64,000 bases of DNA from Allosalinactinospora lopnorensis (GTDB lineage: Bacteria > Actinomycetota > Actinomycetes > Streptosporangiales > Streptosporangiaceae). The notes beneath the pieces were generated by a model. The model had not been told where the DNA came from, made no database searches, and saw only the letters and a program-made list of their open reading frames with translations. Where the stretch lies: assembly GCF_000981225.1 (NCBI RefSeq), contig NZ_LAJC01000014.1:1-64000 (forward strand), written 5' to 3'. The position numbers and the translations under genes are program-made. This document shows, piece after piece, positions 12,099 to 55,191 of this stretch (position 1 is its first letter; the number at the start of each line of letters is the position of its first letter).

Positions 12099-12110
12099 CC
12101 GACCGCCCCC
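12087..12110 (+). terminator. Terminator of the sulfotransferase gene
   Basis: GGGGGCGG (12087-12094) and CCGCCCCC (12103-12110) form a perfect 8-bp stem with an 8-base loop. It overlaps the sulfotransferase stop codon. The following ~330 bases up to the mobA operator hold no recognisable gene. Confidence 0.5.
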
Positions 12111-12439
12111 GCCCAACGGGTCCGGGCTTTCCGGTGTCCGTCCCGCAGCGGCGGCGGGACTCCCGGCTCTCTGCGGCCGGGACGTGCGCATCGGCACGTC
12201 AAGCGGGCTCCAGGAGTACCACTCTCGGTGATCACCGCGGCGGGCGCCGGGCACCGGACCGCCGCGCGCCGTCCCGCGCCGCGGCCGCCGTTCGCCCTCT
12301 TCGGCGGATCGCCGCAGTGTGCGCCGCGGACGTTTCCTGCCGTGCTCACGCTGCGTAGACTGGACTCGGCGCCGAGATAACGATCAAATTTCATGTGGAC
12401 TGGCGGGGGTGCCGCCAGAGCGGGAGCGCCGACATGACG

Positions 12440-12457
12440 TATACTGTCTACAGTATG
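12440..12457 (+). promoter_or_regulatory. Promoter/operator overlapping the mobA start
   Basis: ATACTGT (12441-12447) and ACAGTAT (12450-12456) form a perfect inverted repeat around CT. TATACT at 12440-12445 matches a -10 box, and the palindrome runs into the ATG at 12455, so the mRNA would be leaderless or nearly so. A repressor bound here would cover both -10 box and start site. The half-site CTGT/ACAG recurs in front of the GntR-PBP regulator at 22880-22912. Confidence 0.55.
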
Positions 12458-13327
12458 AATTCGAGCGCGGGAGTTGTGCTCGCCGGTGGCCGCTCCTCCA
12501 GGATGGGGGCGCCGAAGGCGGCGCTCAACTGGCACGGTTCCACCCTGCTGCGGCACGTCACCGGAGTGGTCGGGCGTGCGGTGGACGGTCCGGTGATCGT
12601 CGTGCGGGCCCCCGACCAAGTGCTACCGGAACTGGATCCCGCGGTCGCTGTTCAGGAGGACCCCGAAGAGGGGCGGGGGCCGATGCAGGGGCTCGCCGTC
12701 GGCCTGTCGGCCGCGGCGGAACACGCCGAGACCGCTTTCGTGTGCTCCACCGACCTGCCGTTTCTGCACACGGCTTTCGTGCGCGCGGTGCTGCGCGGCT
12801 TCCAGCCCGATCCGGCGTCCGGCTGGGCGAACCCGCCCGACGTGGTACTGCCGTTCGTGGGCGGCTTCCGCCAGCCGATGGCCGCCGGCTACCGCACGGA
12901 TCTCGCGGGCCGGGTGACCAAGCTGCTGGAGGAGCAGCGACTGCGTCCCGCCCACCTCTTCGAGGAATGCGCCGTCCGGCAGATCGACGACGCGGGATTC
13001 CTGGCCGATCCCCGGCTGGCCGAAGTCGACCCCGGCCTCGATGCCGTCGTCAACGTCAACACCCCCGAGGAGTACTCGGCGGCGCATGGCCGCCCGGCGC
13101 CGGAGATCACCGTGGAGCGGTACGGCGTGCTGGCCACCCGCGGCGGAGGCCGGGGTACGGTCCGGATCAGGGCGGCGAACCTCGCCGACGCCGCGCGGCA
13201 GGTGGGGCTGGCGTTCGACGGCCACATCGTGGCGGCCGTCAACGGCGACCAGATCCGCGGCGACGGGAAACTGCCCCTGCTGGCCGGCGACACTGTCTCG
13301 TTCTTCTCTGCGGACGCGGGTGGGTGA
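12455..13327 (+). CDS. mobA: MobA-like nucleotidyltransferase fused to a MoaD/ThiS domain
   Basis: In this 290-residue protein, residues 1-~215 are a molybdopterin guanylyltransferase-type NTP transferase: VVLAGGRSSRMGAPKAAL (GTP loop and catalytic lysine) at the very start and NVNTPEEY at the end. Residues ~220-290 form a ubiquitin-like MoaD/ThiS domain (ITVERYGVLAT ... VNGDQI ... LLAGDTVSFF) that ends in the diagnostic Gly-Gly (DAGG). MobA attaches GMP to the metal pterin. MoaD carries the thiocarboxylate for dithiolene synthesis, and MoaD-like proteins are encoded with aldehyde oxidoreductases elsewhere. A fusion of the two is unusual. It is the first gene of the tungsten island, and its stop overlaps the possible GTG start of the next gene. 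An in-frame ATG at 12434 is less likely because it lies before the -10 box. Confidence 0.8.
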   Translation: MNSSAGVVLAGGRSSRMGAPKAALNWHGSTLLRHVTGVVGRAVDGPVIVVRAPDQVLPELDPAVAVQEDPEEGRGPMQGLAVGLSAAAEHAETAFVCSTDLPFLHTAFVRAVLRGFQPDPASGWANPPDVVLPFVGGFRQPMAAGYRTDLAGRVTKLLEEQRLRPAHLFEECAVRQIDDAGFLADPRLAEVDPGLDAVVNVNTPEEYSAAHGRPAPEITVERYGVLATRGGGRGTVRIRAANLADAARQVGLAFDGHIVAAVNGDQIRGDGKLPLLAGDTVSFFSADAGG

Positions 13328-13332
13328 ATGCC

Positions 13333-15132
13333 ATGCGGACCCCTGGAGGCTACTGCGGCCAGGCCCTGGTCGTCGACGTTTCCGACGGCTCGACGACGGT
13401 GCTGCCGCTGCCCGAGGACGTACTACGCGGCTACCTCGGGGGCGCCGGCCTCGGCACCTGGCTGCTGACCGAACTCGCTCCGGCCGGTGTCGCCCCTCTG
13501 GACCCGGCCGCGCCGTTGGCGTTCGTGTTCTCCCCGCTGGTGGGAACCCCCCTGACGACGAGCGCCAAGTTCGCCGTGGTGGCCAAGTCGCCGCTCACCG
13601 GCCTGCTCAACGATGCCCTGTCCTCCAGCCACTTCGCGATCTCGGGCAAGTTCACCGGGCACGACGCGATCGTGGTCACCGGCCGCGCGCAGGCGCCCGC
13701 CAACCTCCTGATCGATGAGGAGGGCGTCCGCCTGGTCGACGCGGCGGCGCAGTGGGGCATGTCGGCCGCCGAGGCCGAGGAGTCGGTCCGGGAGCAGTAC
13801 GGCCGCAAGTGGCGGGCGGCGAGTATCGGACCGGCAGGGGAGCGGGCGGTCCGCTACGCCACCATCTCGCACGACGGACGGCACGCCGGCCGCGGCGGGC
13901 TGGGCGCCGTGCTCGGCGCCAAGAACATCAAGTGCGTCGCGGTGCGGGGCGGCAAGCGGGTGGAGCTGGCCGACCGGGAGGCGGTGCTCGCGGCGGCCAA
14001 GGACCTGCGCAACCGCTCGTTCGGGCCCGCCACGGAGAAGTACCGCGAGCTGGGCACGCTGTCCAACCTGCTCGCCTTCAACGCCATCAGCACGCTGCCC
14101 ACCCGCAACTTCCAGAGCGCCACCTTCGCCGACGCGCCCAACCTGTCGGCCGAGGACCTCGCGCAGAGCCGGTCGGTGGCCAGGTCCAGCTGCGCCTCCT
14201 GCAGCATCGGCTGCGAGCACATCTACGCCTCGAAAGGCGGCACGAAGGCGCGGGTGGAGTACGAGAACGTCTTCGCCCTCGGACCGATGTGCGGGGTTTC
14301 GGACCCCGACCAGGTGCTCGAAGCGAGCGCCCGTTGCGACGAGCTCGGCCTGGACACCATTTCGGCGGGCGGCACGATCGCCTGGGCCATGGAGTGCGTG
14401 GACCGGGGCCTGCTCGACGTGCCGTGGCTGCGGTTCGGGGACGGGGCCGCGCTGCTGCGGGCGCTGGACGAGATCGGTGCGCGCACCGGTGTCGGGGACA
14501 TGCTCGCCGAGGGCTCCCGGCGCGCCTCCGAAATCGTCGGGCAGGGCTCGGGGGCGTTCGCGCCGCATGTCAAGGGCCTGGAGATGCCCGGATACGAGCC
14601 GCGCACGATGCAGTCGATGGCGCTGGGGCTGGCGGTCAACGCCCGCGGCGCCGACCACAACCGCTCGGGCGCCTACGAGGCCGACCTCAAAGCTGGGCTG
14701 GACCGGGTGCACGGCACGGCCGAGCACGTGCGGGCCGCCATCCAGACCGAGGACCGGGCCGCGGTCATGGACTCACTGATCTTCTGCAAGTTCCTCCGCG
14801 GAGTGTTCACCGAGCCCTTCGAGGAATGGGCGCTCCTGCTGTCGCACGTCACCGGTTGGGACGTCGACGGGGAGGAACTGCGCGAGACCGCGCGCCGCAT
14901 CGTCATGGCCAAGCGCGCCTACAACCTTCGGGAGGGATGGACCGCAAGCGATGACTGGCTACCCGAGCGCTTCCTCGACGGGTCGCTCTCTCTGGGCTCC
15001 GGGCGCACCGCGACACTGCCCCCGGAGCGTCTACGCATGATGATCGACACCTACTACGCCGAACGTGGGCTGGGCCGGGATGGTCGGCCGCTCGTGATGT
15101 CGACTGATTCAAGAACGGAGTCGAGAACATGA
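13333..15132 (+). CDS. aor: Tungsten-dependent aldehyde:ferredoxin oxidoreductase
   Basis: This 599-residue protein matches the AOR family (600-610 residues) throughout. It has the N-terminal pterin-binding fold (YLGGAGLGTWLL), GRGGLGAVLGAKNIKCVAV around residue 190, the [4Fe-4S] ligands CASCSIGC (C287, C290, C294) plus C485 in FCKF, and the pterin/proton motifs KGLEMPGYEPR and ARGADHNRSGAY. AORs hold a tungsto-bis-pterin and interconvert aldehydes and carboxylates at very low potential. No separate ferredoxin or FAD subunit (AorA/AorC) is present. The neighbouring formate dehydrogenase and NuoEF-like genes may supply the electron partner. A GTG at 13324 is an alternative start overlapping the mobA stop. 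The stop overlaps the fdh start (ATGA). Confidence 0.9.
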   Translation: MRTPGGYCGQALVVDVSDGSTTVLPLPEDVLRGYLGGAGLGTWLLTELAPAGVAPLDPAAPLAFVFSPLVGTPLTTSAKFAVVAKSPLTGLLNDALSSSHFAISGKFTGHDAIVVTGRAQAPANLLIDEEGVRLVDAAAQWGMSAAEAEESVREQYGRKWRAASIGPAGERAVRYATISHDGRHAGRGGLGAVLGAKNIKCVAVRGGKRVELADREAVLAAAKDLRNRSFGPATEKYRELGTLSNLLAFNAISTLPTRNFQSATFADAPNLSAEDLAQSRSVARSSCASCSIGCEHIYASKGGTKARVEYENVFALGPMCGVSDPDQVLEASARCDELGLDTISAGGTIAWAMECVDRGLLDVPWLRFGDGAALLRALDEIGARTGVGDMLAEGSRRASEIVGQGSGAFAPHVKGLEMPGYEPRTMQSMALGLAVNARGADHNRSGAYEADLKAGLDRVHGTAEHVRAAIQTEDRAAVMDSLIFCKFLRGVFTEPFEEWALLLSHVTGWDVDGEELRETARRIVMAKRAYNLREGWTASDDWLPERFLDGSLSLGSGRTATLPPERLRMMIDTYYAERGLGRDGRPLVMSTDSRTESRT

Positions 15133-18026
15133 CACAGACCAACCATGCTCCGGCCGATACCGAACAGCGGACTGTATCGCTCACCATCGACGGCCGAGAG
15201 CTCACCGTCCCCGAGGGGACGACCATCTGGCAGGCGGCCAAGGAGGCGGGGATCGAGATCCCCGCTCTGTGTCACGACGAACGCTACGACCCGGTGGGCG
15301 TCTGCCGGATGTGCGTGGTCGACACGGGGGGCCGGACCTTCCCGGCCTCGTGCATCCGCCCCTGCGAGTCCGGTATGGAGGTCGCGACGTCGACACCGGA
15401 GGTCGAACGCAGCCGTGCGGTGCTCACCGAGCTGCTCCTCGCCGACCAGCCACCCCGCGAGGAGGACCCCAAGCAGACGACGACGGCCGACAACGAGCTC
15501 ATCGAGGTCGCCGACAACTACGACATCGCCACGATCGACGACCTGTTCAAGGGCCCCGGCCGCGGCACCGACACCTCCAACCCGGTGATCGCCGTCGACC
15601 ACGACTCCTGCATCCTGTGCGACCGGTGCGTCCGCGCGTGCGACGACGTCCAGGGCAACGACGTCATCGGGCGCAGCGGCAAGGGCTACTCGACGCGCAT
15701 CGCGTTCGACCTCAACGACCCGATGGGCGAGTCCTCCTGCGTCACCTGCGGCGAGTGCGTCTCCGCGTGCCCCACCGGCGCGCTGACCAACAAGCCGATC
15801 AACAACATCCCGATCCGGCCGCGCTCCGAGCTCGACGCGGTCGACACGGTGTGCCCGTACTGCGGTGTCGGCTGCGCGCTGACCTACTACGTCGACCGCG
15901 AGCGCGGCGGGATCTCGTTCGCCGAGGGCCGCAACCAGCCGGGCAACCAGGGCAGGCTCTGCGTGAAGGGCCGCTACGGCTGGGACTACGCGGCCTCACC
16001 GCAGCGGCTCACCGCGCCGCTGATCCGCGTCGACTCCTCCTACCCCAAGGGGCCGCTGTCGGCCGATGTCAAGGACGAGGCGCAGCAGAGCAACGGCAAG
16101 CGCGGGCGCGGCCGCAAGCCGGGAGGGCTGGTGCCCTACGAGGAGGTGCTGCCCCACTTCCGCGAGGCCACCTGGGACGAAGCGCTGGACCTGGTGGCCA
16201 GGAGGCTCGGCGGGATCTTCGCCGAAAGCGGGCCCGAGGGGATCGCGGGCTTCGGCTCGGCGAAGTGCTCCAACGAGGAGGCCTACCTCTTCCAGAAGCT
16301 GATCCGCACGGCCTTCCGCACCAACAACGTCGACCACTGCACCCGGCTGTGCCACGCCTCCAGCGTGGCCGCACTGTTCGAGGGCGTCGGCTCCGGCGCG
16401 GTCTCGACCACCTACGGCGACATCACCAATGCGGACGTCGCGATCATCACCGGCAGCAACGCGACGGCCAACCACCCGGTGGCGTCGTCCTTCTTCAAGC
16501 AGGCGCGGCGCAACGGCACCAAGATCATCTACGTTGACCCGCGCAGCGGAACGGTCGCCGACCACGCCGACATCTTCTGCCAGCTCAAGCCCGGTACGGA
16601 CGTGGCCCTCTACAACGGGATCATGCACGAGGTCATCCGGCTGGGACTGGTCGACCGGGACTTCCTCGCAAGCCGCACCACCAACTACGAGGAACTCGCC
16701 CGCACCGTCGAGGCCTACCCGCCGGAGCTGGCGGCGCAGATCACCGGTGTCGACGCGGACACGATCCGCGAGATCGCCCGGCTCTGGGGCGAGGCGAACG
16801 CCGGCGTCATCTACTGGGGCATGGGCATCTCGCAGCACACCACGGGCACCGACAATGCGCGCTGCCTCATCGCGATGTGCTCCATCACCGGCAACGTCGG
16901 CCGGCCGGGGACCGGGCTGCACCCGCTGCGCGGGCAGAACAACGTGCAGGGCGCTTCCGACGCCGGGCTCATCCCGATGTTCTACCCCAACTACCAGTCG
17001 GCGGGCGACGAGAAGGCCCGCGTCCTCTTCGAGGAGGCATGGGGGACCGAGCTCAACCCGGAGAAGGGGCTCACCGTCACCGAGATCATCAAGTCGATCC
17101 TCGACGGCGGCGTGCGCGGCATGTACATGCTGGGGGAGAACCCCTTCCTGTCCGACCCCAACATCAACAAGGTCCGCAAGGCGCTGTCCCAGCTGGACTT
17201 CCTGGTGGTGCAGGACATCTTCCTCACCGAGACCGCGGAGTTCGCCGACGTCATCCTCCCGGCCTCGTCGTACCTGGAGAAGGACGGCACCTACACCAAC
17301 ACCGACCGCCGGGTGCAGCGCGGCCGCAAGGTCTTCGACCCGCCGGGCGACGCCCGGGTCGACTGGGAGATCGTGCAGGAGATCGCGCAGCGGCTGGGGC
17401 TGGACTGGAACTACCGGTCCCCGCAAGAGGTGTTCGACGAGATGGTCCCCCTCATGCCGGACTACGCCAACCTGAGCTACGACAACCTCGGCTCGGAGGG
17501 CAAGCTCTATCCCAACCCCGACCCCGAGCACACTGACGGCACGGTGGTGCTGTTCGACGACCGGTTCAACACCGCCGACGGGCTGGCGCACCTGGTGCCC
17601 GCCGAGTGGCTGCCGGGTAAGGAGCTGCCCAGCGAGGAGTACCCCTACGTGCTCAACACCGGCCGGCTGCTGGAGCACTGGCACACCGGCTCGATGACGC
17701 GGCGCTCGTTCGCCCTGGACAGCATCGCGCCGCGCGCCGAGGCCTACGTGCACCCCGAGGACGCCGACGAGCTCGGGCTCAAGGACGGCGAACTCGCCAG
17801 GGTGACCTCCCGGCGCGGCGAGATCGTGCTCAACGTCAAGATCTCGCACCGGGAGGCCCGCGGGAACATCTTCATCCCGTTCCACTTCCGGGAGGCAGCG
17901 GCGAACCTGCTGACGATCGACGAGATCGACCCGATGGGCAAGATCCCGGAGTTCAAGTTCTGCGCCGTACGGATAGCTCCCGTGGCGGACCGTGTAAGCA
18001 CCACAGTCGGAGGTAGCGCATCATGA
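15129..18026 (+). CDS. fdhA: Formate dehydrogenase catalytic subunit, NuoG-like N-terminus
   Basis: This 965-residue protein has, in order, a [2Fe-2S] domain ([15 protein letters not shown]), two [4Fe-4S] clusters ([27 protein letters not shown]), the catalytic-domain cluster ([10 protein letters not shown] ... [10 protein letters not shown]) and the molybdopterin oxidoreductase fold with a C-terminal dinucleotide-binding domain. The active-site metal ligand is a cysteine at about residue 408 in [15 protein letters not shown], the position of Sec140 in E. coli FdhF. The architecture is that of NAD-linked, oxygen-tolerant formate dehydrogenases (FdsA/FdhA). With TupABC in the same unit the metal is probably tungsten, although molybdenum cannot be excluded. 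Start and stop overlap both neighbours by ATGA, so translation is tightly coupled. Confidence 0.92.
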
Positions 18027-19719
18027 CGTTGGAGGCTCACCATCAGGCGAAGGTCCCCGGCGTCGAGGCGCGGGCCGGCAAGTTCCGAGGGCCGAGCCTG
18101 ATCCCCATGCTCATGGCCATCCAGGAGCGCTGCGGCTGGCTGCCGCGGGAGGAACTCGAAGCGCTCGCCCGCGAGCAGCGGCGGCCGCTCTACGAGATCG
18201 AGGGCCTGATCTCGTTCTATCCGCACTTTCGGACCGAGCCGCCGCAGGGCGCCACCGTGGGGCTCTGCCACGACCTGGCGTGCTGGCTGAAGGGGTCCGA
18301 GGAGCGGATCGCGCAGCTGCGCGAGCGGTACGGCGACACCGGGGACGTGGAGATCACCGGGATCTCCTGCCCCGGCCGCTGCGACATCGCGCCGGCCGCG
18401 ACCGTGGACGACCGTCCCGGCCGGGTCGAGGAGATCCCCGCCCTGCTGGAGGCCCGGCGCGGCGGCAGCAGGGAACCGGGGCCGACCGTCGCCTACGGGC
18501 CCGAGGGCGGCTGGCCGAACGACCCCTATGAGCGGGTCGAACACCGCTACGGGGCGCTTCGGGCGCTGCTGTCCGGTGAGATCACACCGGAACAGGTCAT
18601 CGACAACCTGCAGCGGTCGGGCCTGCGCGGCATGGGCGGCGCGGGCTTCCCGACGGGCAGGAAGTGGGAGCTGGTCCGCACGACCGAAGGCAGCCTCAAG
18701 TACGCAATCTGCAACGCCGACGAGTCCGAGCCGGGCACCTTCAAGGACCGCCAGCTTCTGGCCGAGCAGGCGCACCTGGTGCTTGAGGGCCTGCTGATGG
18801 GGATGGTCGTCACCGGCGCGAGGAGGGGTGGGTCTTCATCCGCCACGAGTACGGCCCCGAGGAGGCCGTGCTGCACGCCGAGATCGAGCACCTGCGGGAG
18901 CTGGGGCTGATCGGGCACGACGTCCTCGGCAGCGGCCGCACGCTCAGCCTGGACATCTTCACCTCACCCGGCGGCTACATCCTCGGCGAGGAGACCGCGC
19001 TGATCGAGTGCATGGAAGGGCACCGGGGAGAGCCCCGCAACAAGCCGCCGTTCCCCGGGGTCTACGGGCTGTGGGGCAAGCCCACCCTGATGAACTCGGT
19101 CGAGACCTTCGCCGACGTGCCGATCATCGCCTCGCGCGGCGCCGACTGGTGGAAGGACCAGGGGACGGGCGACAGCACCGGGCTGAAGTTCTTCGCGGTA
19201 TCGGGCCACGTCGAGAAGCCGGGTGTCTACTGCGTGCCGATGGGCACCAGCATCCGCGACCTCATCGACCTCGCCGGCGGTGTCGCGGGCGGCGCGGAGC
19301 TCGACTGCGTCCAGCCCGGGGGCGCGTCGTCGAACTTCCTGGGCGTGGAGCACCTCGACACCCCGCTCGACTTCGGCACCCTGGCCGAGGCCGGCTCGAT
19401 GCTGGGGTCCGGGGCGCTCGTCGTCATCGCGAAGGGAACGGACACGCTGGCGGCGGCGACCAACGTGCTGCGGTTCTTCCGCAACGAGTCCTGCGGTAAG
19501 TGCGTCCCCTGCCGGGTAGGCTCCACCAAGGCCCACGAGCTGCTCACCGACACGCTGCAGGCCGGCGGCGAGCTGAGCGACGAGCGCCGCGAGCGCCTGC
19601 GCGAGCTTGAGACCGTGATGCGCAAGACCTCGATCTGCGGGCTGGGGCAGGTGGCCATGGGGCCGGTCGTGAGCGTCCTGGACCAGCGGGGCGACGGCGC
19701 CGCGGAGCCGCCGGAGTGA
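18023..19719 (+). CDS. fdhB: NuoE-NuoF fusion, NADH-linked subunit of the formate dehydrogenase (frameshifted)
   Basis: The first ~150 residues are a NuoE/thioredoxin-like [2Fe-2S] domain (CHDLAC ... CPGRC). The rest is Nuo[17 protein letters not shown] and [14 protein letters not shown] for [24 protein letters not shown], and a [4Fe-4S] site (CGKCVPCR ... SICGLGQ). At 18821-18828 the frame breaks. One extra G would turn TGARRGG into [20 protein letters not shown] and restore the full ~566-residue protein. The subunit would pass electrons between the FdhA clusters and NAD+. NuoE and NuoF are separate genes in most relatives, so the fusion is worth noting. The frameshift is probably a sequencing indel. 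Confidence 0.85.
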
Positions 19720-19720
19720 G

Positions 19721-20953
19721 GTGGGATTGAGCGCTACGGAGTTCTTCACGGCGCTGCCCGTGTCGGAGGCGCTGGCGGGGTTCCGGCCGCGCCGGCGCAC
19801 CGGCACGGAGCCGGTCGACCGCGAGGCGGCCCTGGGCCGCGTGCCCGCGGCGGCGGTGACCTCGGGTGCGGCGCTGCCCGGGTTCGCCCGCTCCACCGTC
19901 GACGGGTACGCGGTCCGCGCCGCGGACACCTACGGCGCCAGCGACGCGCTGCCCGCCTACTTCGATCTGATCGGCAGCGTGCGGATGGGCGCGCCCGCTG
20001 ATGTCGCCGTCCGCCCGGGCGCGGCGGTGCAGATCCCCACCGGCGCCGCCATCCCGCACGAGGCCGACGCGGTCGTCATGGTCGAGCACACGCAGGTCAC
20101 CATGCCCGGGGTGATCGAGGTGACGAGGCCGATCGCCGTCGGAGGGGGTGTCGTGCGTGCGGACGAGGACGTCGCCGTCGGCGCCGAGCTCGCCCCGGCC
20201 GGGCGGGCACTGCGCGCCCAGGACCTCGGCCTGCTCGCCGCGGCGGGAGTCACGCGGGTCGAGGTGCGCGCCCGGCCGCGGGTGGGCGTCATCTCCACGG
20301 GTGACGAGGTGGTGCCCCCGGACACCGCGGAACTGGGGCCCGGCCAGGTGCGGGACGCGACCGCGTCCGCGCTGGCCGCGCTGGTGGCGGAGGCGGGAGG
20401 CGAGCCGTCGCCGCGGGGGATTGTACCAGACGACGTCGACGCCCTGGCCGGCACGCTGGAGGCGGCCGTGCGGGACTGCGATGTCGTGGTGGTCTCGGCC
20501 GGTTCGTCGGTCGGGGCGCGGGACGAGACGACCGCCGCCGTCCGGTCCCTGGGCGATTCGAGCGTCTACTGCCACGGTCTGGCCATCAAGCCGGGAAAGC
20601 CCACACTGCTCGCCGAGTGCTCGGGCGTGCCGGTCATCGGGCTGCCCGGCAACCCGCTGTCGGCCCTGGTCGTCTTCCGGCAGGTCGGACTGCCGGTGCT
20701 GCGCCGGGTCGGCGGTATCACGCACCCGCCCGCGGAGCCGACCACCGCGGCCACCATGGAGCGCGCGGTCGCATCGGCGGCGGGCAGGCTGGACGTCGTC
20801 CAGGTGCGGTTGCGCGACGGTGTCGCCACACCGCTGTTCGGGGCCTCGGCGCTGCTGTCCCTGCTCACCAACGCGGACGGCTACGTCGTGATCCCCGAGG
20901 CGGCCACCGGGCTCGACGCGCAGGCGGCCGTGACCGTAACGATGTACAGGTAG
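19721..20953 (+). CDS. moeA: Molybdopterin molybdenumtransferase MoeA
   Basis: This 410-residue protein is a typical MoeA. It has the RSTVDGYAVRAADT motif, IPTGAAIPHEADAVVMVEH, the MogA-like domain GVISTGDEVVPP and DVVVVSAGSSVGARDET, and GLPGNPLSALVVF. MoeA inserts the metal oxyanion into adenylylated molybdopterin. Two MoeA-type proteins sit side by side here. One may be tuned to tungstate and the other to molybdate, as proposed for paralogous MoeAs in archaea. The GTG lies 2 bp after the NuoF stop; a TTG at 19727 is an alternative start. Confidence 0.9.
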   Translation: MGLSATEFFTALPVSEALAGFRPRRRTGTEPVDREAALGRVPAAAVTSGAALPGFARSTVDGYAVRAADTYGASDALPAYFDLIGSVRMGAPADVAVRPGAAVQIPTGAAIPHEADAVVMVEHTQVTMPGVIEVTRPIAVGGGVVRADEDVAVGAELAPAGRALRAQDLGLLAAAGVTRVEVRARPRVGVISTGDEVVPPDTAELGPGQVRDATASALAALVAEAGGEPSPRGIVPDDVDALAGTLEAAVRDCDVVVVSAGSSVGARDETTAAVRSLGDSSVYCHGLAIKPGKPTLLAECSGVPVIGLPGNPLSALVVFRQVGLPVLRRVGGITHPPAEPTTAATMERAVASAAGRLDVVQVRLRDGVATPLFGASALLSLLTNADGYVVIPEAATGLDAQAAVTVTMYR

Positions 20954-20961
20954 GAACGCCC

Positions 20962-22878
20962 GTGCACGACAGTCCCTTCGTGAACGACGTGCCCGCGGAC
21001 TCGGCGATGGCGGCCTGGCAGCGGGCCCGCGCCGCCACCGGCTGCCCGGAGCGGCTCGACGGGGTCACCCTCGCGCTCGAGGAGGCGGTGGGGCGGGTGA
21101 CCGCGCTACCGGTCTGGGCCGGCCGTTCGTCGCCGGTCGGCGACGTCGCCGCGATGGACGGTATCGCCGTCCGCTCCGCCGACACCCACGGTGCGTCGGA
21201 GACCACGCCGCTCCATCTGAAGCCGGACTCCTACCACGTGGTCGACACGGGGGACCCGATGCCGGACGGCCTTGACGCGGTCGTCATGCGCGAGCACGTG
21301 CACCGCGTCGGCGGGGGCGACACCGTGGAGATCCTGGCGGCCGTACCGCCCTACCAGCACGTGCGCTCGATCGGGGAGGACGTCAGCGCGGGCGAGCTGC
21401 TGCTGCCCGAGGGGCACCGGCTGCGCCCCGTCGACGTCGCCGCCGCGGCGGCCGCGGGCGCCACCGAGCTGACGGTCCGGCGGCGGCCGAAGGTGGTGGT
21501 CATCCCCACCGGCGACGAGATCGTGCCGATCGGGTCGCCGCCGCGTCAGGATCAGATTCTCGACACCAACTCGCTGATGCTGCTCTCCCAGGCGCGCGAG
21601 GTGGGCTGCGAGGCGTGGGCGCTGCCGGTCCAGCCCGACGACGTGGCCCGGATCAGCGAGGCGGTCCGCGGCGCGGCCGCCGCTGCGGACCTGGTGGTGG
21701 TCGTCGCCGGGTCCAGTGCCGGCCGGGACGACTACACGGCGCGCGTGGTGGCCGAGCTGGGATCGCTCGCCGTGCACGGGGTCGCCGTGCGGCCCGGCCA
21801 CCCGGTGGTGCTGGGCGCGGTCGAGGCCACCCCGGTGATCGGGGTGCCGGGCTATCCGGTCTCGGCTGCCCTGACGTTCGACATCTTCGCCGCGCCGCTG
21901 CTCGCCGAGCTCGAAGGCGCGGCGCCGCCGCACCGGCCGGAGGTCCAGGCCCGGCTCGCCCGGAAGCTGCCGTCCGTCGTCGGCATGGACGACTGGGTCC
22001 GGGTGCGCCTGGGAGCGGTGAACGGGCAGGTCGTGGCGACCCCGCTGCCGCGCGGTGCCGGCGTGCTGACCTCGCTGGTGCGGGCGGACGGGCTGCTGGT
22101 CGTGCCGGCGGCCGTGGAGGGGCACCAGGCCGGCGAGCGGGTTCCGGTGCAGCTGCTGCGCAGGCTGCCCGAGATCGAGCGCTCGATCGTCGCCATCGGC
22201 TCGCACGACCTGGTCCTCGACCTCGCGGCCACGGAGTTGCGCGCCGCCGACCCGACGCTGAGCCTGATGTCGTCCAACGTCGGCTCGCTCGGCGGGCTGG
22301 TGGCGCTGCGCGACGGGTTGTGCCACGTGGCCGGTTCGCATCTGCTGCACCCCGCGACGGGGGAGTACACCCTGCCCTACCTGGACGAGATGATGCCTGA
22401 TCGGGAGCTGGCCGTGGTGCGCCTCGTGCACCGTGATCAGGGGCTGCTGGTGCCGCCCGGGAACCCGGAGGGGGTCACGGGCCTGTCCGACCTCGCTGGG
22501 GGGCGCCTGTCCTATGTGAACCGGCAGCGGGGCGCGGGTACCCGGATGCTGCTCGACCACGAGCTGCGCAGGCTGGGGATCGATCCGGCGGGGATCGACG
22601 GCTACGCGCGGGAGGAGCCGACGCACCTCGCCGTCGCCGCCGCGATCGCCGCGGGACGGGCGGACTGCGGCCTCGGCATCATGGCGGCCGCGCAGGCGTT
22701 CGGGCTGGGCTTCGTTCCGGTGGCACAGGAGCCCTACGACCTCGTGCTGGACGCCGGCGGTCTCGACGACCCGCTCCTCGCACCTCTGTGGGACCTGCTG
22801 GAGTCGCCGGACTTCCAGGCGTCGGTGGAGGCGCTCGGCGGCTACAGCACAGCGGAGACTGGTCACCGGATCCGGTAG
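20962..22878 (+). CDS. MoeA fused to a PBP-like oxyanion-binding domain
   Basis: This 638-residue protein starts at GTG 20962, 8 bp after the previous stop, with GTAGGAACG upstream. Residues 1-~410 are MoeA-like (VAAMDGIAVRSADT, VVIPTGDEIVP, VVVVAGSSAGRDDYT, GVPGYPVSAALTF). Residues ~425-630 are a PBP-like domain of the PF12727 type (SIVAIGSHDLVLDLAA, HRDQGLLVPPGNPEG, RQRGAGTRMLLDHELR). Such fusions are known, mostly in archaea and some bacteria. The binding domain may deliver or discriminate molybdate and tungstate. The same domain recurs in the regulator encoded next, with clear similarity (GLLVPPGNP versus GLVVPKGNP). Confidence 0.87.
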   Translation: MHDSPFVNDVPADSAMAAWQRARAATGCPERLDGVTLALEEAVGRVTALPVWAGRSSPVGDVAAMDGIAVRSADTHGASETTPLHLKPDSYHVVDTGDPMPDGLDAVVMREHVHRVGGGDTVEILAAVPPYQHVRSIGEDVSAGELLLPEGHRLRPVDVAAAAAAGATELTVRRRPKVVVIPTGDEIVPIGSPPRQDQILDTNSLMLLSQAREVGCEAWALPVQPDDVARISEAVRGAAAAADLVVVVAGSSAGRDDYTARVVAELGSLAVHGVAVRPGHPVVLGAVEATPVIGVPGYPVSAALTFDIFAAPLLAELEGAAPPHRPEVQARLARKLPSVVGMDDWVRVRLGAVNGQVVATPLPRGAGVLTSLVRADGLLVVPAAVEGHQAGERVPVQLLRRLPEIERSIVAIGSHDLVLDLAATELRAADPTLSLMSSNVGSLGGLVALRDGLCHVAGSHLLHPATGEYTLPYLDEMMPDRELAVVRLVHRDQGLLVPPGNPEGVTGLSDLAGGRLSYVNRQRGAGTRMLLDHELRRLGIDPAGIDGYAREEPTHLAVAAAIAAGRADCGLGIMAAAQAFGLGFVPVAQEPYDLVLDAGGLDDPLLAPLWDLLESPDFQASVEALGGYSTAETGHRIR

Positions 22879-22912
22879 ACTGTATTCTGTACCGGTGGTA
22901 CAGAAGGTACAG
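22876..22912 (+). promoter_or_regulatory. Operator/promoter region of the GntR-PBP and tup genes
   Basis: TTCTGTACC (22885-22893) and GGTACAGAA (22897-22905) form a perfect 9-base inverted repeat around GGT. Further half-sites flank it: CTGTA at 22880-22884 and TACAG at 22908-22912. TAGACT at 22876-22881 could be a -10 box inside the end of the previous gene. The site overlaps the GTG at 22895, which fits autoregulation by the GntR-like protein. Half-sites resemble those at the mobA start. Confidence 0.6.
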
Positions 22913-23827
22913 GAAGTCGCGATGGCCGTGGCAGCCGACATCATCGCCGGGCGGATCGGTCCCGGCGCCCCCGTCCCCGCCGTCCGCGAACTGGCCAGGA
23001 CGGCCGGCTGTTCTCCGGGCACGGCCGCGCGGGCGCACACGATCCTGCGCGAGGCGGGCGTCATCGAGGGATCGCCGCGTTCGCACGCGGTGGTCACGGC
23101 CGAGGGTCCGGAACGGGCGGTCGCGATGACGGCCGGCCTCGGCAGCGGTACCGAAGCGGCCCGGCTGTGCGGCAGCGACGATCCCGCGCTCGACCTGCTG
23201 CTGTCGACCGCCGGGCCCGCCGTCGAGCGCGTCCCGGCGGGGCGGGGCAGCGTCGCGGGGCTGGGGATGCTCGCCCAGGGCACCGCCGACGCGGCCGCGG
23301 TGCACCTCCGCGACGCGCGCACGGGCCGCGCCAACGACACGTTCGCGCGGCGCGTCCTCGGGGGCCGGCCCGCGACCCTCGTCCACCTGTGGAGCCGCGA
23401 GCAGGGCCTCGTGGTGCCGAAAGGGAACCCGCTGGGGATCGCGGGGGTCGCCGATCTCAACGGCGCCGCTCTGGCCGTGCGGGCACCGGGAACCGGGTCG
23501 CGCCTGCTGCTGAACCGGCTGCTCCGCGAGGAGGGGGTCACTCCCGGGCAGGGCGGCGAGGTGTGCGAGTCGCACTTCGGGGTCGCCGCCGCCGTGGCCA
23601 CGGGGGCCGCCGACGCGGGTCTGGCCGTCCGCGCGGTGGCCGACGCCGTCGACGCGGACTTCCTGCCGATCGAGTGGGAGGACTTCGAACTCGCCACCGG
23701 CCCGGACTCCGCGGGGCTGCTCGCTCCGCTGCTCGACGTACTCACAACGGGGGCATTCCGGAATCGGCTGGCCGACATGGCGGGCTACGACGCGCGCCGT
23801 GCCGGCGACATGCGGGAGGCAGCGTGA
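22895..23827 (+). CDS. GntR-type winged helix fused to a PBP-like domain: probable tungstate-responsive regulator
   Basis: In this 310-residue protein, residues 1-~75 are a GntR winged helix (AADIIAGRIGPGAPVPAVRE and GCSPGTAARAHTILREAGVI). Residues ~90-300 are a PF12727-like periplasmic-binding fold with SREQGLVVPKGNPLG and APGTGSRLLLNRLLREEG, paralogous to the C-terminus of the upstream MoeA fusion. It has no signal peptide, so it would sense ligand in the cytoplasm. Its place immediately before tupA suggests that tungstate or molybdate is the effector and that it replaces ModE. The GTG start keeps the first GntR helix intact. An ATG at 22922 with AGGAAG upstream is the alternative. Its stop overlaps the tupA ATG (TGATG). 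Confidence 0.8.
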   Translation: MVQKVQEVAMAVAADIIAGRIGPGAPVPAVRELARTAGCSPGTAARAHTILREAGVIEGSPRSHAVVTAEGPERAVAMTAGLGSGTEAARLCGSDDPALDLLLSTAGPAVERVPAGRGSVAGLGMLAQGTADAAAVHLRDARTGRANDTFARRVLGGRPATLVHLWSREQGLVVPKGNPLGIAGVADLNGAALAVRAPGTGSRLLLNRLLREEGVTPGQGGEVCESHFGVAAAVATGAADAGLAVRAVADAVDADFLPIEWEDFELATGPDSAGLLAPLLDVLTTGAFRNRLADMAGYDARRAGDMREAA

Positions 23828-24654
23828 TGAGAACGGCGTCCGGGGCGGTAGCGGCAGCGGCGGTCCTGGCGGCGGCGGGATGCTCGTCCGGGGACGCGGA
23901 GGAGAGCACGGTCGGTGCCGGGGGCGACGTGGTGCTGGCGACCACGACGAGCACCCAGAACTCGGGGCTGCTCGACGAGATCCTCCCGATGTTCGAGGAG
24001 AACAGCGACTGCACCGTGAAGACGGTGGCGGTCGGTTCCGGGCAGGCCATGGAGATGGGCGAGCGGGGCGACGCCGATGTCCTGCTCGTGCACTCGCCGG
24101 AGGCCGAGGAGCGGTTCATGGCCGACGGGCACGGGTCCAGCCGCGAGCCGGTCATGCACAACGACTTCGTCCTCCTCGGACCACCGGACGACCCCTCCGG
24201 GCTCGCCGAGGCGGACGACGCGGCCGCGGCGCTGGCCGAGGTCGCAGAGGACGAGGCGCTGTTCGCCTCGCGCGGCGACGACTCCGGTACGCACGCCAAG
24301 GAGCTGTCCCTGTGGGAGGAGGCCGGCATCGAGCCGGGCGGTTCGTGGTACGTCGAGACCGGCCAGGGCATGGGGGAGACCCTGACGGTCGCGAGCCAGA
24401 AGCAGGCCTACACGCTCTCGGACCGCGGAACGTTCCTGGCCACCAGCGGCCTGGAGTCCGAGATCGCCTTCGAGGGGACCGAGGACCTGAACAACGACTA
24501 CCACGTGGTCGTCGTCGACCACGAGGGGACGAACACCGGTTGCGCGGAGGAGTTCTCCGGCTGGATCCGCGGCGAACCCGTACAGCGGGCGATCGCCGGT
24601 TTCGGCGTCGACGAGCACTCCGAGCCGCTGTTCTTTCCCGACGCACTGGACTGA
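23827..24654 (+). CDS. tupA: Tungstate ABC transporter, substrate-binding lipoprotein
   Basis: This 275-residue protein has a lipoprotein signal peptide with the cysteine at about residue 19 (VLAAAGCSS). The mature protein begins with TTTSTQNSGLLDEILP and contains VAVGSGQAMEMG, EPVMHNDFVLLGPPDDP and FASRGDDSGTHAKELSLW. These are the conserved oxyanion-binding loops (TTTS, and SRGDDSGTH) of TupA tungstate receptors, which bind tungstate far more tightly than molybdate. It follows the GntR-PBP gene by TGATG overlap and precedes tupB in the same way. TupA could be confused with the related WtpA/ModA, but the TTTST and DSGTH motifs favour TupA. Confidence 0.9.
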   Translation: MRTASGAVAAAAVLAAAGCSSGDAEESTVGAGGDVVLATTTSTQNSGLLDEILPMFEENSDCTVKTVAVGSGQAMEMGERGDADVLLVHSPEAEERFMADGHGSSREPVMHNDFVLLGPPDDPSGLAEADDAAAALAEVAEDEALFASRGDDSGTHAKELSLWEEAGIEPGGSWYVETGQGMGETLTVASQKQAYTLSDRGTFLATSGLESEIAFEGTEDLNNDYHVVVVDHEGTNTGCAEEFSGWIRGEPVQRAIAGFGVDEHSEPLFFPDALD

Positions 24655-25310
24655 TGAGCGAGACGGTCTATGAGGTGCTGGCGCGCTCCGCGGTCGTGTC
24701 CTTGAGCGCGGCGGCGATCGCCTCGCTGGTCGGGATCTCGCTCGGGACCGCGCTGGCGCTCACCCGGGCGGGCGGGCGCAGGTTCCTGGTCGCCGTGGTC
24801 AACACCGGCATGGCGGTTCCGACGGTCGTCGTCGGGCTGGGCGTGGCGCTGCTGCTGTGGCGCAGCGGCCCCCTAGGCGGTCTCGGGCTGATCTACACTG
24901 TGCGCGGCATGATCATCGCCCAGGCGCTGATCGCCATACCGCTGATCACGGCGATCACGATGGCGGCGCTGCGCATGCTCCCCCCGGAGCTGCCGGAGCA
25001 GCTTCGCTCGCTCGGGGCCAACCGCGCGCAGCTGGTGCTGCGCATGTGGCTCGAAGCCCGGCTGCCGCTGCTCGCCGCCGCGGCGGCCGGGTTCGGGACG
25101 GCGATCTCGGAGGTGGGCGCCGCCACGATCGTCGGCGGCAACATCCACGGCCATACGCAGGTGATGACGACCGCGATCGTGGAGAGCGTGAGCCGCGGCG
25201 ACTTCGGGGTCGCGATCGTCTACGGCCTGATCCTTCTGGGCCTGGCGTTCCTCGTCAACGGCCTGCTGGCCTCGGTGCAGCGAAGGGGGGCCGCGTGGGC
25301 GCGGAGCTGA
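24654..25310 (+). CDS. tupB: Tungstate ABC transporter permease
   Basis: This 218-residue inner-membrane protein has about five hydrophobic helices and the permease EAA loop (LGANRAQLVLRMWLEARLPLL). AISEVGAATIVGGNIHGHT is characteristic of TupB. It starts by TGATG overlap with tupA and overlaps tupC by 16 bp, so the three subunits should be made in fixed proportion. Confidence 0.88.
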   Translation: MSETVYEVLARSAVVSLSAAAIASLVGISLGTALALTRAGGRRFLVAVVNTGMAVPTVVVGLGVALLLWRSGPLGGLGLIYTVRGMIIAQALIAIPLITAITMAALRMLPPELPEQLRSLGANRAQLVLRMWLEARLPLLAAAAAGFGTAISEVGAATIVGGNIHGHTQVMTTAIVESVSRGDFGVAIVYGLILLGLAFLVNGLLASVQRRGAAWARS

Positions 25311-26371
25311 GCGTGCGCGGTCTCCGGCACTTCCGGGGCGGCCGCGAGGTACTGCGGGTGGGCGAACTCGATGTGCAGCGCGGCGCGCGGCTGTGCGTCC
25401 TCGGCCCCAATGGGGCGGGCAAGACCACCCTGCTGCGGCTGCTCGCCGCCGTCGAGATGCCGCACCGCGGCCGGGTCACCGTCGGCGGGGTGCGCACCAC
25501 CGACGGCGGGGTGGAGCTGCGGCGCCGGGTGGCGTATGCGACGCAGCGTCCGGCGCTGCTGTCCACCAGCGTCCGGTGCAACGTCGAGCTGCCGCTGCGC
25601 TGGCGGAAGGTGCCGCGGGACAGGCGGGGCGGCCTCGCCCTCCACGCGCTGGAGCGGCTGCGCGTCGCGCACCTGGCGGACCGCCCCGCGGCCGCGCTCT
25701 CCGGAGGAGAACAGCAGCGGGTCAGCCTGGCGCGTGCGCTCGCCGTCGAGCCGGCCGTGCTGCTGCTCGACGAGCCGGCAGCGGGCCTGGACGCCCAGTC
25801 GCGCCTGGCGTTCCTCGCCGATCTCGACCAGGCCCTGGCTGATCGCACCACCACGGTCGTGCACGTCTCGCACCGCCCGGAGGAGGCGATGCGGCTGGCG
25901 GACCGGGTGGTGGCCCTTTTCGACGGGCGCGTGCACCAGACCGGAACCCCCGAGTTCCTCACCCGGCACCCGGTCGACGGCAGTGTGGCCGCGCTGGTCG
26001 GCTACGACAACCTCGTCGACGCTTTCGTCGAGGCGGACGGCGGCGTGTCCGTGGACGGGGTCCCCACCGGACTCGGCTGCAGCGGTCCCGCCGGTCCCGC
26101 GACGGTCGCCGTTTTCGCCAACGGTGTGCGGGTGGCGGGGGAGGGGGATCCGGGGGTGCCCGTGCACGTCTGCCAGGTCGCCCCCGGTCCGGGGTACTGG
26201 ACGGTGACACTCGACGGCGCGGTGCCGCTGCTCGCGAAGGTGCGGCTCGACCGTCCCCCTCCGCCGGCGGGCGAGCAGGCGCGGGTGGTCTTCGACCCGG
26301 CGCTCAGCGTCGTGCTGCCGAAGTCGGCCGGTTCCGCTCCGCCCTGCGGTGAGCCGGGGGCGGGGGGCTGA
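25295..26371 (+). CDS. tupC: Tungstate ABC transporter ATP-binding protein
   Basis: This 358-residue protein starts at a GTG at 25295 inside tupB, with GAAGGGGGG upstream. It shows Walker A (GPNGAGKTT), Q-loop (ATQRPALL), signature (LSGGEQQRVSLARAL), Walker B (VLLLDEPAAGLD) and the switch histidine (VHVSHRPEE). After the ATPase, residues ~245-345 look like a TOBE/Mop-type beta domain, which in such ATPases can bind oxyanion and control transport. It is the last gene of the tungsten island and is followed by a strong hairpin. Confidence 0.88.
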   Translation: MGAELSVRGLRHFRGGREVLRVGELDVQRGARLCVLGPNGAGKTTLLRLLAAVEMPHRGRVTVGGVRTTDGGVELRRRVAYATQRPALLSTSVRCNVELPLRWRKVPRDRRGGLALHALERLRVAHLADRPAAALSGGEQQRVSLARALAVEPAVLLLDEPAAGLDAQSRLAFLADLDQALADRTTTVVHVSHRPEEAMRLADRVVALFDGRVHQTGTPEFLTRHPVDGSVAALVGYDNLVDAFVEADGGVSVDGVPTGLGCSGPAGPATVAVFANGVRVAGEGDPGVPVHVCQVAPGPGYWTVTLDGAVPLLAKVRLDRPPPPAGEQARVVFDPALSVVLPKSAGSAPPCGEPGAGG

Positions 26372-26392
26372 GCACGCCACTGCCCGATGCGG

Positions 26393-26422
26393 CCGGCGGA
26401 TCCCGCGGGCCTTCGCCGCCGG
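26393..26422. terminator. Bidirectional terminator between tupC and the GntR gene
   Basis: CCGGCGG (26393-26399) and CCGCCGG (26416-26422) can pair. The hairpin lies in the 53-bp gap between two convergent genes. Confidence 0.5.
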
Positions 26423-26424
26423 GG

Positions 26425-27111
26425 TCAGCCGTAGCCGTCCTCAGAGAAGAGCTCCGGGTGCTTCGACAGTTCGAGGCGGGTCCGGCGGATGTGTCCGGTG
26501 AGGAAGCGCTCGGCGTCGATGGTGTCCGCTCGCTTGACGGCCTCGATGATCAGGCGGTGTTCAGCGTAGATCAGCTGCCAGCCGCTCGTGTCGATGATCC
26601 GCGCGAAGGCGCGGCGGTAGTGCTGGGTGCTGTTCCAGAACCGGTCGATCATGGTGTTGAGCTGATCGATCCGGCAGCCGGCGTAGGTGGCGAGGTGGAG
26701 CTCCTTGTCGAGGCTGAGGAAGCGGTCGATGTCGTCGCTGCCCTCGATCTCCTGCTGGATCTGTTCGAGGCGCTCCACGGCCGCCGGAGTGAGGCGGGGG
26801 ATGCTCTCGGCCAGGGCGAGCGGTTCGACGCGCTCGCGGATCTTGTAGACCCCGTCGCACTCGGAGAGGTCCATCTTCGACACCCACGCGCCGCTGTTGG
26901 ACTTGAGGACGGTCAGTCCTTCGGCCGCGAGGATCCGCAGCGCTTCGCGGACGGGCAGCCGACTCGCCCCGAGCGCGGAGGCGACCTCTTCCTGCATGAT
27001 CCGCGTGCCCGGCCTCAGCTCGCCGCTGAGGATCGCGTCTCGCAGGTAGTCGGCCACCCGTTGACTCGCCACGGTCGGCGGACTCGAGGTGGCGGTTGCC
27101 TTCTTGGACAT
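26425..27111 (-). CDS. GntR regulator, FadR/FCD subfamily
   Basis: This 228-residue protein has an N-terminal winged helix (VADYLRDAILSGELRPGTRI and SALGASRLPVREALRILAAEGL) and a C-terminal all-helical FCD domain with the acidic/His metal-site pattern (DKELHLATYAG ... EHRLIIEAVKR ... HIRRTRLELSK). FCD regulators usually respond to organic acids. It is co-directional with the VOC gene (18 bp apart) and diverges from the 2-oxoacid dehydrogenase unit. The two TGGATCCA sites in the divergent region are its probable operators. Confidence 0.88.
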   Translation of the reverse strand: MSKKATATSSPPTVASQRVADYLRDAILSGELRPGTRIMQEEVASALGASRLPVREALRILAAEGLTVLKSNSGAWVSKMDLSECDGVYKIRERVEPLALAESIPRLTPAAVERLEQIQQEIEGSDDIDRFLSLDKELHLATYAGCRIDQLNTMIDRFWNSTQHYRRAFARIIDTSGWQLIYAEHRLIIEAVKRADTIDAERFLTGHIRRTRLELSKHPELFSEDGYG

Positions 27112-27129
27112 GGCCCTCCCCGGGCGTGA

Positions 27130-27674
27130 CTAGCGGTCGCTCCGGTCATCAGGCTGCCACAGTAGGACGGAGGCGTTCTCGGCGTAGGCCTTGCCGCCGG
27201 GGTAGGACACCAGTTCGAGCTGCATCCCCCACGGCGACAGGAAGTACACCCAGCGCTGTCCTCCGCTCGGGCCGGAGCTGGCGGTGGCTCGCCCAGGATC
27301 CGCACCCCGTGACCGCGCAGGTGAGCGACCGCCGCATCGATGTCTTCGACGTAGAACGCCAGGTGGTGGCCGCCGACATCGCTGTTGCGGGGCGGCTGCG
27401 GGTTCCGCTCGGGCGCGTCGTACTCGAAGATCTCGAAGTTCGGGCCGTTGGCGCATCGGAAGAAGCGGAGTTCGCGCATCACCGTGCGCGGGTGCACGTT
27501 GAGGCGGTCGGACATCCACGAGTCATCGGAGTGGAACGGGCCGAGCGAGTACACGAAGTCGCATCCGATCACGTCGACGAAGAACCTCGTCGCCTCTTCG
27601 AGGTCGGGGACAGTGAAGCCCACGTGCTCGACCCCGGTCAGTCCCGGCAGACCACCGGATCTCCGGCCGCTCAT
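27130..27674 (-). CDS. VOC (glyoxalase/dioxygenase superfamily) protein (frameshifted)
   Basis: The start ATG at 27674 has GGGAGGTG upstream. The protein begins LTGVEHVGFTVPDLEEATRFF with one metal histidine, has GGHHLAFYVEDIDAAVAHL in the second module, and ends PWGMQLELVSYP with the acidic ligand. The second part lies in a different frame from the first: one base appears to be missing around 27284-27287. With it restored the protein is about 182 residues. VOC enzymes include epimerases, lyases and dioxygenases, and the reaction here is unknown. Clustering with a 2-oxoacid dehydrogenase suggests a catabolic step that generates the 2-oxoacid or acyl-CoA. Confidence 0.75.
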
Positions 27675-52294: not shown

Positions 52295-53983
52295 ATGGCG
52301 GAATACGTAGAGGCAGGGCATGCCGTCAACCAAGCATCGCTGAGCGGCATAGTCGGGAGTGCGCCGCCGGTGGCCCAGAACGTCACGTATGAGCGCATTC
52401 TCCAGGCCCGCTCGGAACCGCAGAACTGGCTCACCTACTACGGCGCCTACGACGGGCAGCGCTACAGCCCGCTGGACCAGATCAACACGGAGAACGTCAA
52501 GCAGCTCGCTCCCGCGTGGGTGTTCCAGTCCGGCTCTGTCGGCCTTCACGCGGGCCCGTCGACGTACTCGTTCGAAGCCGCCCCGATCGTCGTGGACGGA
52601 GTCATGTACGTCGCGGGCTGGGACGGCTGGGTCTGGGCCCTCGACGCCCGGACCGGGCAGGAACTATGGCGATACAAGCATGCGATCCCGTATGACACGT
52701 CGCTCTGCTGCGGCAATGTGAACCGCGGGGTCGCCGTGGCGAAGGGGAAGGTCTTCGTCGTCACCCTGAACGCCCACGTGATCGCGCTCGACGCCGAAAC
52801 CGGCGAGCGTGTCTGGGACAGCACGTACGGTGATGTGCGGGCCGGGGAGAGCGCTACGCTCGCTCCTCTGGTCGTGAAGAACCTGGTGATCGTCGGGAGT
52901 TCTGGCGGGGAGTTCGGGGTGCGCGGCCACCTCGACGCCTTCGATCTCGACACCGGACGGCACGTCTGGCGGACGTACACAGTGCCGAAGCCCGGCGAGC
53001 CCGGGTCCGAGACCTGGCCTGCTGAAGGGAAGGCCTGGGAGCGGGGTGGGGGAAACTGCTGGGTCACCGGCACCTACGACCCGGAGCTGAACCTCATGTA
53101 CTGGGGGACCGGCAACCCGTCGCCCGACTTCGACGGAGGTGTCCGTGAGGGCGACAACCTCTACACCGACAGCGTCATCGCCGTGAACCCGGACAATGGC
53201 GAGATCCGCTGGCACTACCAGTACAACCCGCACGACCTGTGGGACTACGACAGCACGATGGAGAACATCCTGTTCGACCTGGACGGCCGCAAGCTGCTGG
53301 CGCATTTCAACAAGAACGGGTATTTCTTCGTCCTGGATCGTACGAACGGTGAGCTGGTCCGGGTAGCGCCCTTCGTCGATCGCATCACGTGGGGCGAGAT
53401 CGACGCCAACGGCAAGGTGACACCCGAGGTGTACCCCAAGAACGAGGGGGAGCCGGTCAAGTTCTGGCCGGGGCCGGCTGGTGGCAAGGAATGGACGCAC
53501 GCGGCCTACAGCCCGAGGACACAGCTCTTCTACGTCCCGGTGCAGGATGTCGGTGCGGAGGTCACCCTGCGGCGCAGGGAGTTCAGGGAGAGCATTCCGT
53601 ACTGGGGAGCGGCCGTCGTCGTGGACTCCGAGGAAATGGCGGGCTCCGTGAGCGCCTTCGATCCGTCCACGGGCGAGGAGGTGTGGCGCTGGCGTAATGA
53701 CCTGCCGATGTGCGCGTCGGTGTTGGCCACGGGCGGTGACCTCGTGTTCGCTGGCGAACCCACGGGGGAGTTCAACGCGTTCAACGACCGCACCGGGGAG
53801 CTGCTGTGGCAGTTCCAGACGGGAAGCGGTCACCACAGCAGCCCGACGACCTACAGCGTCGACGGAAGGCAGTACATAGCCGTGCCGGTCGGGTGGGGTG
53901 CCTGGGTCGAGGGGTTCCTCCCCGGGATGCTCGGGGCTCCCTCTGGAAGCGCGCTCGTCGTCTTCGCACTGCCGGAATCGTAG
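52295..53983 (+). CDS. PQQ-dependent alcohol dehydrogenase, lanthanide-type
   Basis: This 562-residue protein starts at ATG 52295, 6 bases after GAAAGGAG. It is an eight-bladed quinoprotein of the methanol/ethanol dehydrogenase family: NWLTYYGAYDGQRYSPLDQI, vicinal cysteines at about 138-139 (SLCCGNVNRG), GGGNCWVTGTYDPELNLMYWGTGNP, and WDYD with the catalytic Asp near 317. The second Asp (about 319) is the residue that distinguishes lanthanide-dependent enzymes (XoxF, ExaF, PedH) from calcium ones. No cytochrome domain is fused, and the N-terminus (AEYVEAGHAVNQASLSGIVG) is not a classical signal peptide. The natural alcohol is unknown. Confidence 0.88.
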   Translation: MAEYVEAGHAVNQASLSGIVGSAPPVAQNVTYERILQARSEPQNWLTYYGAYDGQRYSPLDQINTENVKQLAPAWVFQSGSVGLHAGPSTYSFEAAPIVVDGVMYVAGWDGWVWALDARTGQELWRYKHAIPYDTSLCCGNVNRGVAVAKGKVFVVTLNAHVIALDAETGERVWDSTYGDVRAGESATLAPLVVKNLVIVGSSGGEFGVRGHLDAFDLDTGRHVWRTYTVPKPGEPGSETWPAEGKAWERGGGNCWVTGTYDPELNLMYWGTGNPSPDFDGGVREGDNLYTDSVIAVNPDNGEIRWHYQYNPHDLWDYDSTMENILFDLDGRKLLAHFNKNGYFFVLDRTNGELVRVAPFVDRITWGEIDANGKVTPEVYPKNEGEPVKFWPGPAGGKEWTHAAYSPRTQLFYVPVQDVGAEVTLRRREFRESIPYWGAAVVVDSEEMAGSVSAFDPSTGEEVWRWRNDLPMCASVLATGGDLVFAGEPTGEFNAFNDRTGELLWQFQTGSGHHSSPTTYSVDGRQYIAVPVGWGAWVEGFLPGMLGAPSGSALVVFALPES

Positions 53984-54080
53984 TAGCGCCGCGGACTTCC
54001 CCGACCTCACCGGTGACCGGGAAGGCTGCGGCGGACAACCACCAGACCCGCCCGCGAGTTCGGCGGAGGAGGTGACAGCC

Positions 54081-54188: not shown

Positions 54189-54291
54189 TGCCTGACGGGC
54201 GGGCGCCGGGTGTGGGCCCGCCGCCCGCCCGGTCCTTCCGGCGCAGGTGTCCGACCGCGAACAACCGTGTTGCGAGGGTTGGAGGGCCAGG

Positions 54292-55184: not shown

Positions 55185-55191
55185 AGCCGTG

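Follow-up and report, generated by a model that had tools for sequence, protein, structure and literature searches.

A MobA-MoaD fusion at the head of an actinobacterial tungsten operon has a Gly-Gly tail that stays with the aldehyde oxidoreductase

The window analysed here is a stretch of 64,000 nucleotides from Allosalinactinospora lopnorensis (contig NZ_LAJC01000014.1, forward strand, positions 1 to 64,000). It contains the following features, listed with the evidence for each.

12441..12456, no strand: palindrome ATACTGTCTACAGTAT, overlapping the fusion start codon, likely operator (0.04 expected by chance)
12455..13327, + strand: MobA-MoaD fusion, 290 aa (translation, Pfam, relatives, AlphaFold2 model)
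12470..12946, + strand: MobA / NTP_transf_3 domain match, residues 6-164 (Pfam; PDB folds 3ngw, 1h4d, 1e5k)
13103..13324, + strand: MoaD/WorX-like beta-grasp domain, residues 217-290 (sub-cut-off ThiS match, profile search, AlphaFold2, Foldseek)
13319..13324, + strand: C-terminal Gly-Gly, predicted thiocarboxylate site (residues 289-290, stop codon directly after)
13333..15132, + strand: AOR (tungsten aldehyde oxidoreductase family), 599 aa (AFOR_N and AFOR_C domains, motif alignment)
15129..18026, + strand: formate dehydrogenase alpha, FdhA, with NuoG-type N-terminus (TIGR01591, E=2.5e-240, 799 bits, above cut-off)
18023..19719, + strand: FdhB, NuoE-NuoF type, frame broken by a one-base deletion near 18819 (domains, comparison)
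19721..20953, + strand: MoeA, metal insertion (domain search)
20962..22878, + strand: MoeA fused to a PBP_like domain (domain search)
22870..22885, - strand: weak second operator-like site, three mismatches, before the GntR-PBP regulator gene (motif search)
22922..23827, + strand: GntR-HTH plus PBP_like regulator, candidate oxyanion sensor (domain search)
23827..26371, + strand: TupABC-type ABC transporter, with binding protein, permease and ATPase (domains and synteny)

The fusion gene is a single open frame of 290 codons running from ATG to TGA. Its N-terminal half carries the loop LAGGRSSRMG at residues 9-18 and matches the Pfam family NTP_transf_3 (PF12804) over residues 6-164 with E=3.5e-30 (105.7 bits, cut-off 27). 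A sequence search of the PDB found E. coli MobA for the N-terminus, and when the AlphaFold2 model of the whole protein (pLDDT 92, pTM 0.91) served as query the MobA structures 3ngw, 1h4d and 1e5k were found. Like E. coli MobA (1e5k, 1fr9), the fusion shows the NTP-transferase fold, the LAGGxSxRMG loop, a conserved Asp and an NxN motif; the loop, D100, N200 and N202 are conserved across the fusion family, and LAGGxSxRMGxxK is invariant in the 42 copies that end in Gly-Gly, bar one A-to-I at position 10. On the other hand, the fusion differs from E. coli MobA in its added C-terminal sulfur-carrier domain, in its setting in an AOR/formate dehydrogenase (FDH) tungsten operon, and in scoring below the curated NCBIfam MobA equivalog cut-offs (best NF001855, 101 bits against a cut-off of 205; TIGR02665, 66 bits against 152).

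The C-terminal domain is more divergent. The Pfam family ThiS (PF02597) aligned with residues 241-290 at 16.0 bits in the whole protein and 19.4 bits in the isolated domain, below the cut-off of 22.5. A profile built from ten actinobacterial C-domains, however, had E. coli MoaD (1fm0_D / 1nvi_D) as its best PDB match (E=0.0085), aligned to the terminal Gly-Gly, and this match reached 5e-8 when six gammaproteobacterial fusions were added. AlphaFold2 modelled the isolated domain as a beta-grasp (pLDDT 83), with E. coli MoaD and archaeal SAMP1 as the closest PDB folds (TM about 0.75, Foldseek). The earlier note had placed MobA and a MoaD/ThiS domain in one frame, and translation, Pfam, profile and fold agree with it. 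Although the last 70 residues or so of the single sequence stay below the ThiS cut-off, we let the family profiles and the structure model outweigh that score, and on these grounds the assignment as a predicted MoaD-type beta-grasp holds. The domain shares fold, terminal Gly-Gly and best profile match with E. coli MoaD (1fm0_D), but is very divergent from it and lies in an operon that encodes neither MoaE nor MoeB.

The nearness of SAMP1 in fold also allows the domain to be read as a SAMP/Ubl-like modifier which, once conjugated to AOR or some other target, regulates that target, in line with the dual role of Thermococcus Ubls, which are described as both sulfur carriers and modifiers (PMC11323500). 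However, since the domain is fused behind a 215-residue enzyme, a whole MobA would be conjugated, and no conjugating partner was found in the operon; we regard this reading as extremely unlikely.

The same architecture, end to end, was found in nine actinobacterial loci from other genomes (58-86% identity) and in dozens more copies, and a chance or assembly join was therefore ruled out as the source of the fusion. AOR and FdhA follow the fusion in eight of the nine loci, as do FdhB and MoeA where the contig extends; the exception, L007, has no AOR nearby. Across actinobacteria the fusion thus heads an operon of the order fusion-AOR-FdhA-FdhB-MoeA. The AOR gene starts six bases past the last base of the fusion, an arrangement kept in other genomes, and its product carries PF02730 and PF01314 (Pfam AFOR_N and AFOR_C), with the CxxCxxxC...C cluster ligands and the Glu/Tyr/His pocket residues aligning with those of P. 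furiosus AOR (1aor). The transporter at the end of the cluster is assigned to the TupABC type by domains and synteny, and presumably takes up tungstate.

Some further observations concern the window itself. Relative to L001 and L002, each with a single fdhB frame, the deletion near 18819 is either an assembly error or a real pseudogene mutation. Two MoeA genes lie in one tungsten cluster, one plain (19721-20953) and one with a C-terminal PBP_like domain (20962-22878). Farther downstream (52370-57260), genes resembling, by eye, a PQQ-dependent dehydrogenase and PQQ biosynthesis genes (pqqC/D/E-like) were noticed.

The 16-base palindrome at the fusion start is conserved in position in L001, L002 and L006, and occurs there in altered form in L003 and L004; the conserved element is of a protein-binding type and likely an operator. 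An RNA regulatory element was set aside, as an Rfam search of 12100-27200 gave neither a Moco/Tuco riboswitch nor any other known RNA and the palindrome was found instead. A TATACT lies very near the ATG of the fusion, and given this closeness the transcript may be leaderless.

Besides the fusion, the host genome encodes a separate MobA, a canonical MoaD, ThiS and CysO-like proteins, one MoaE, and one AOR. The fusion is therefore an extra copy and is probably dispensable for basic Moco supply. The C-domain could be an ordinary extra MoaD that is not specially linked to AOR and works through the cellular MoaE to supply more molybdopterin to every enzyme of the tungsten operon. Its fold and best profile match are those of MoaD, the operon encodes two pterin enzymes, and there is a precedent in gammaproteobacteria, where MobA-MoaD fusions (L041, L045, L056, L060, L062, L065, L070, L078) were found that have the same domain order and terminal Gly-Gly as the fusion in the window. 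One of them (L041) lies in a moeA-moaA-moaC-fusion-moaE-moeB operon, and its fused MoaD evidently serves as an ordinary MoaD in a canonical Moco operon. These fusions nevertheless differ in setting and in sequence: all four tested score above the ThiS cut-off, no AOR was found in any of the six searched genomes carrying this type, and they keep the canonical tail PPVAGG, from which the actinobacterial SADAGG departs.

The gammaproteobacterial fusions are also only about 30% identical to ours. Because unfused MobAs of Pseudonocardia (56%) and Sorangium (49%) are closer to the MobA half in the window, a single origin of the two fusion types is unlikely by this identity comparison, and the MobA-MoaD fusion probably arose at least two times independently. 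No published MobA-MoaD fusion was found in the open-access literature.

The fate of the Gly-Gly tail was then compared with the presence of AOR. To this end genomes from the class (395) and the family (299) were searched with a C-domain profile, and those that matched were searched for AOR; together with the nine actinobacterial loci and one plasmid copy this gave 62 scorable fused copies, in which some species are counted twice via the two collections. Genome sampling was even rather than exhaustive and included many MAGs, so that an absent AOR can be a gap. All 40 AOR-adjacent fused copies end in Gly-Gly, and the tail is lost in 20 of the 22 copies without AOR. The two copies that end in Gly-Gly with no AOR detected are L007 (G395, a MAG) and L173 (G550); a doubtful third, L182, ends in Gly-Gly in a shifted, shortened tail, and recoding it as Gly-Gly left the result unchanged. 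L169 was counted by hand as AOR-linked (a contig break follows the fusion and AOR opens another contig), and G571 was counted as AOR-free for this clade, with a distant second-clade AOR elsewhere in the genome. On a tree of the MobA part alone, six to seven of the seven independent pairs that differ in AOR also differ in Gly-Gly in the same direction, and none in the opposite one (median p=0.03); a simple Fisher test, with p about 1e-14, takes no account of relatedness and was not used as evidence.

In several copies only the tail is altered and the core intact (SADARG, SADAVAGADGG..., HPAGADG, IPAVSFSPG), and MobA catalytic residues are conserved equally in copies with and without Gly-Gly. 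The MoaD/MobA divergence ratio was 2.9-3.4 within two non-Gly-Gly pairs as against 0.8-1.9 within Gly-Gly pairs; being simple p-distances for hand-picked pairs, these values are supportive of a MoaD part that would diverge at about three times the rate of MobA once the tail is gone. In one Gly-Gly-less copy (L174, G529) the frame runs on into a methyltransferase to give 534 aa, with the tail PADAIG in place of the SADAGG of its near-identical relative L167, and represents either a read-through fusion or an assembly artefact.

The earlier note had also entertained a tether rather than a carrier, that is, a docking module that keeps MobA attached to MoaE, MoeA or an apo-enzyme and carries no sulfur. 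In fused copies that have lost Gly-Gly the beta-grasp core does stay recognisable for a while, and a structural use is conceivable there. However, a tether does not need a free C-terminal Gly-Gly that goes with the client, and the one seen here is invariant in the AOR-linked copies, vanishes with AOR, and is present in three standalone versions that have no MobA to tether (see below); moreover, the MoaD core degenerates after Gly-Gly is lost. The tether reading is thus disfavoured, and we find it very unlikely.

Since loss of AOR usually goes with loss of the orthologous FdhA, loss of Gly-Gly alone could reflect either client. In G012, G035 and G069 the protein is split: a standalone MoaD of 78-80 aa ending in SADAGG lies immediately in front of AOR, and a MobA with a Gly-Gly-less remnant (TSNVGV, SANVPR) adjoins moeA elsewhere. 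The two clients themselves are separated in only three genomes, G431, G446 and G558, where a Gly-Gly-less fusion with intact MobA adjoins another formate dehydrogenase, with no AOR; here MobA persists with FDH without Gly-Gly. The FDH frames at these loci (L189 in G431, L185 in G446, L186 in G558) each contain one TGA at about the position of the metal-ligand Cys, and probably encode selenocysteine enzymes. That the tail was lost although the fusion still adjoins a formate dehydrogenase speaks, together with the departure of SADAGG from PPVAGG, against an ordinary extra MoaD, and we consider that explanation rather unlikely.

Pairing of MoaD with AOR also exists without a MobA fusion: a Thermomicrobium AOR, 48% identical to the AOR of the window, has a standalone MoaD ending in Gly-Gly directly upstream. 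The claim that separate MoaD-like genes accompany AORs elsewhere is therefore sound, and published accounts agree with it. WorX is a recent name for ThiS-like proteins near tungsten oxidoreductases, whose role is stated there to be unknown (PMC13328260); aorD and aorE of Aromatoleum are separate MoaD-like genes accompanying AOR (PMC6365974); and in Thermococcus, as described in PMC11323500, which Ubl matters depends on the tungsten enzyme, UblB without its C-terminal Gly-Gly fails to restore growth that depends on the tungsten cofactor, and deletion of the AOR-adjacent UblC leaves about 54% of AOR activity. Like WorX, aorD/aorE and UblC, the domain in the window belongs to a small beta-grasp type found beside AOR, here directly upstream, and the fusion is indeed a ThiS-like gene next to the large-subunit gene of a WOR/AOR, as WorX is defined. 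It differs from them in sitting on the C-terminus of MobA and in its SADAGG tail, and no MobA fusion was found in the passages on WorX, aorD/aorE and UblC in these three sources. By sequence and context the protein in the window is best described as a MobA with a WorX/MoaD-like domain at its C-terminus.

Building on the architecture, the predicted fold, the intact MobA residues, the conserved operon and the co-retention of Gly-Gly with AOR, all of them read from sequence, we propose that the fusion is a two-function protein of the tungsten operon, a proposal that we consider probable. In the known AOR-family enzymes tungsten is bound by two molybdopterins (MPT) without a nucleotide, and DMSO-reductase-family tungsten enzymes such as FDH carry MGD, as summarised in PMC6365974. 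Because the bis-MPT of known AORs carries no GMP, the client of the MobA half is most likely the formate dehydrogenase of the operon, whose bis-MGD cofactor MobA would build by attaching GMP. The sulfur carrier could in principle serve AOR or FDH; we assign it to AOR because Gly-Gly is co-retained with AOR, which makes the MoaD half most likely an AOR-dedicated carrier in the role suggested by the name WorX. A MoeB/MoeZ-type enzyme whose gene lies elsewhere is expected to adenylylate and thiocarboxylate the C-terminal Gly of this carrier, and the sulfur would be used for the dithiolene of the pterin in the adjacent AOR (bis-MPT, no GMP). That both domains share a chain would then probably reflect service to the same tungsten operon, and not action on one substrate. 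Of the AOR-specific cofactor line suggested in the earlier note, the part concerning MoaD thus stands, with a Gly-Gly kept beside AOR and decaying without it; the part concerning MobA is not supported, given known AORs without nucleotide, an FDH in the operon and Gly-Gly-less fusions beside FDHs.

Should the two domains instead act in sequence on one cofactor, the actinobacterial AOR clade would use bis-MGD or an otherwise MobA-dependent tungsten cofactor, in contrast to the AORs examined to date. We give this little credence; if true, the fusion would amount to a cofactor factory dedicated to AOR.

Under the two-function proposal, the fusion family amounts to a natural experiment, in which the tail persists beside AOR and degenerates in its absence, with the MobA half of that chain still intact. 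Whether a client-specific sulfur carrier operates, as opposed to one shared molybdopterin pool, is directly testable in cultured actinobacteria, among them Kribbella, Nonomuraea and Murinocardiopsis.
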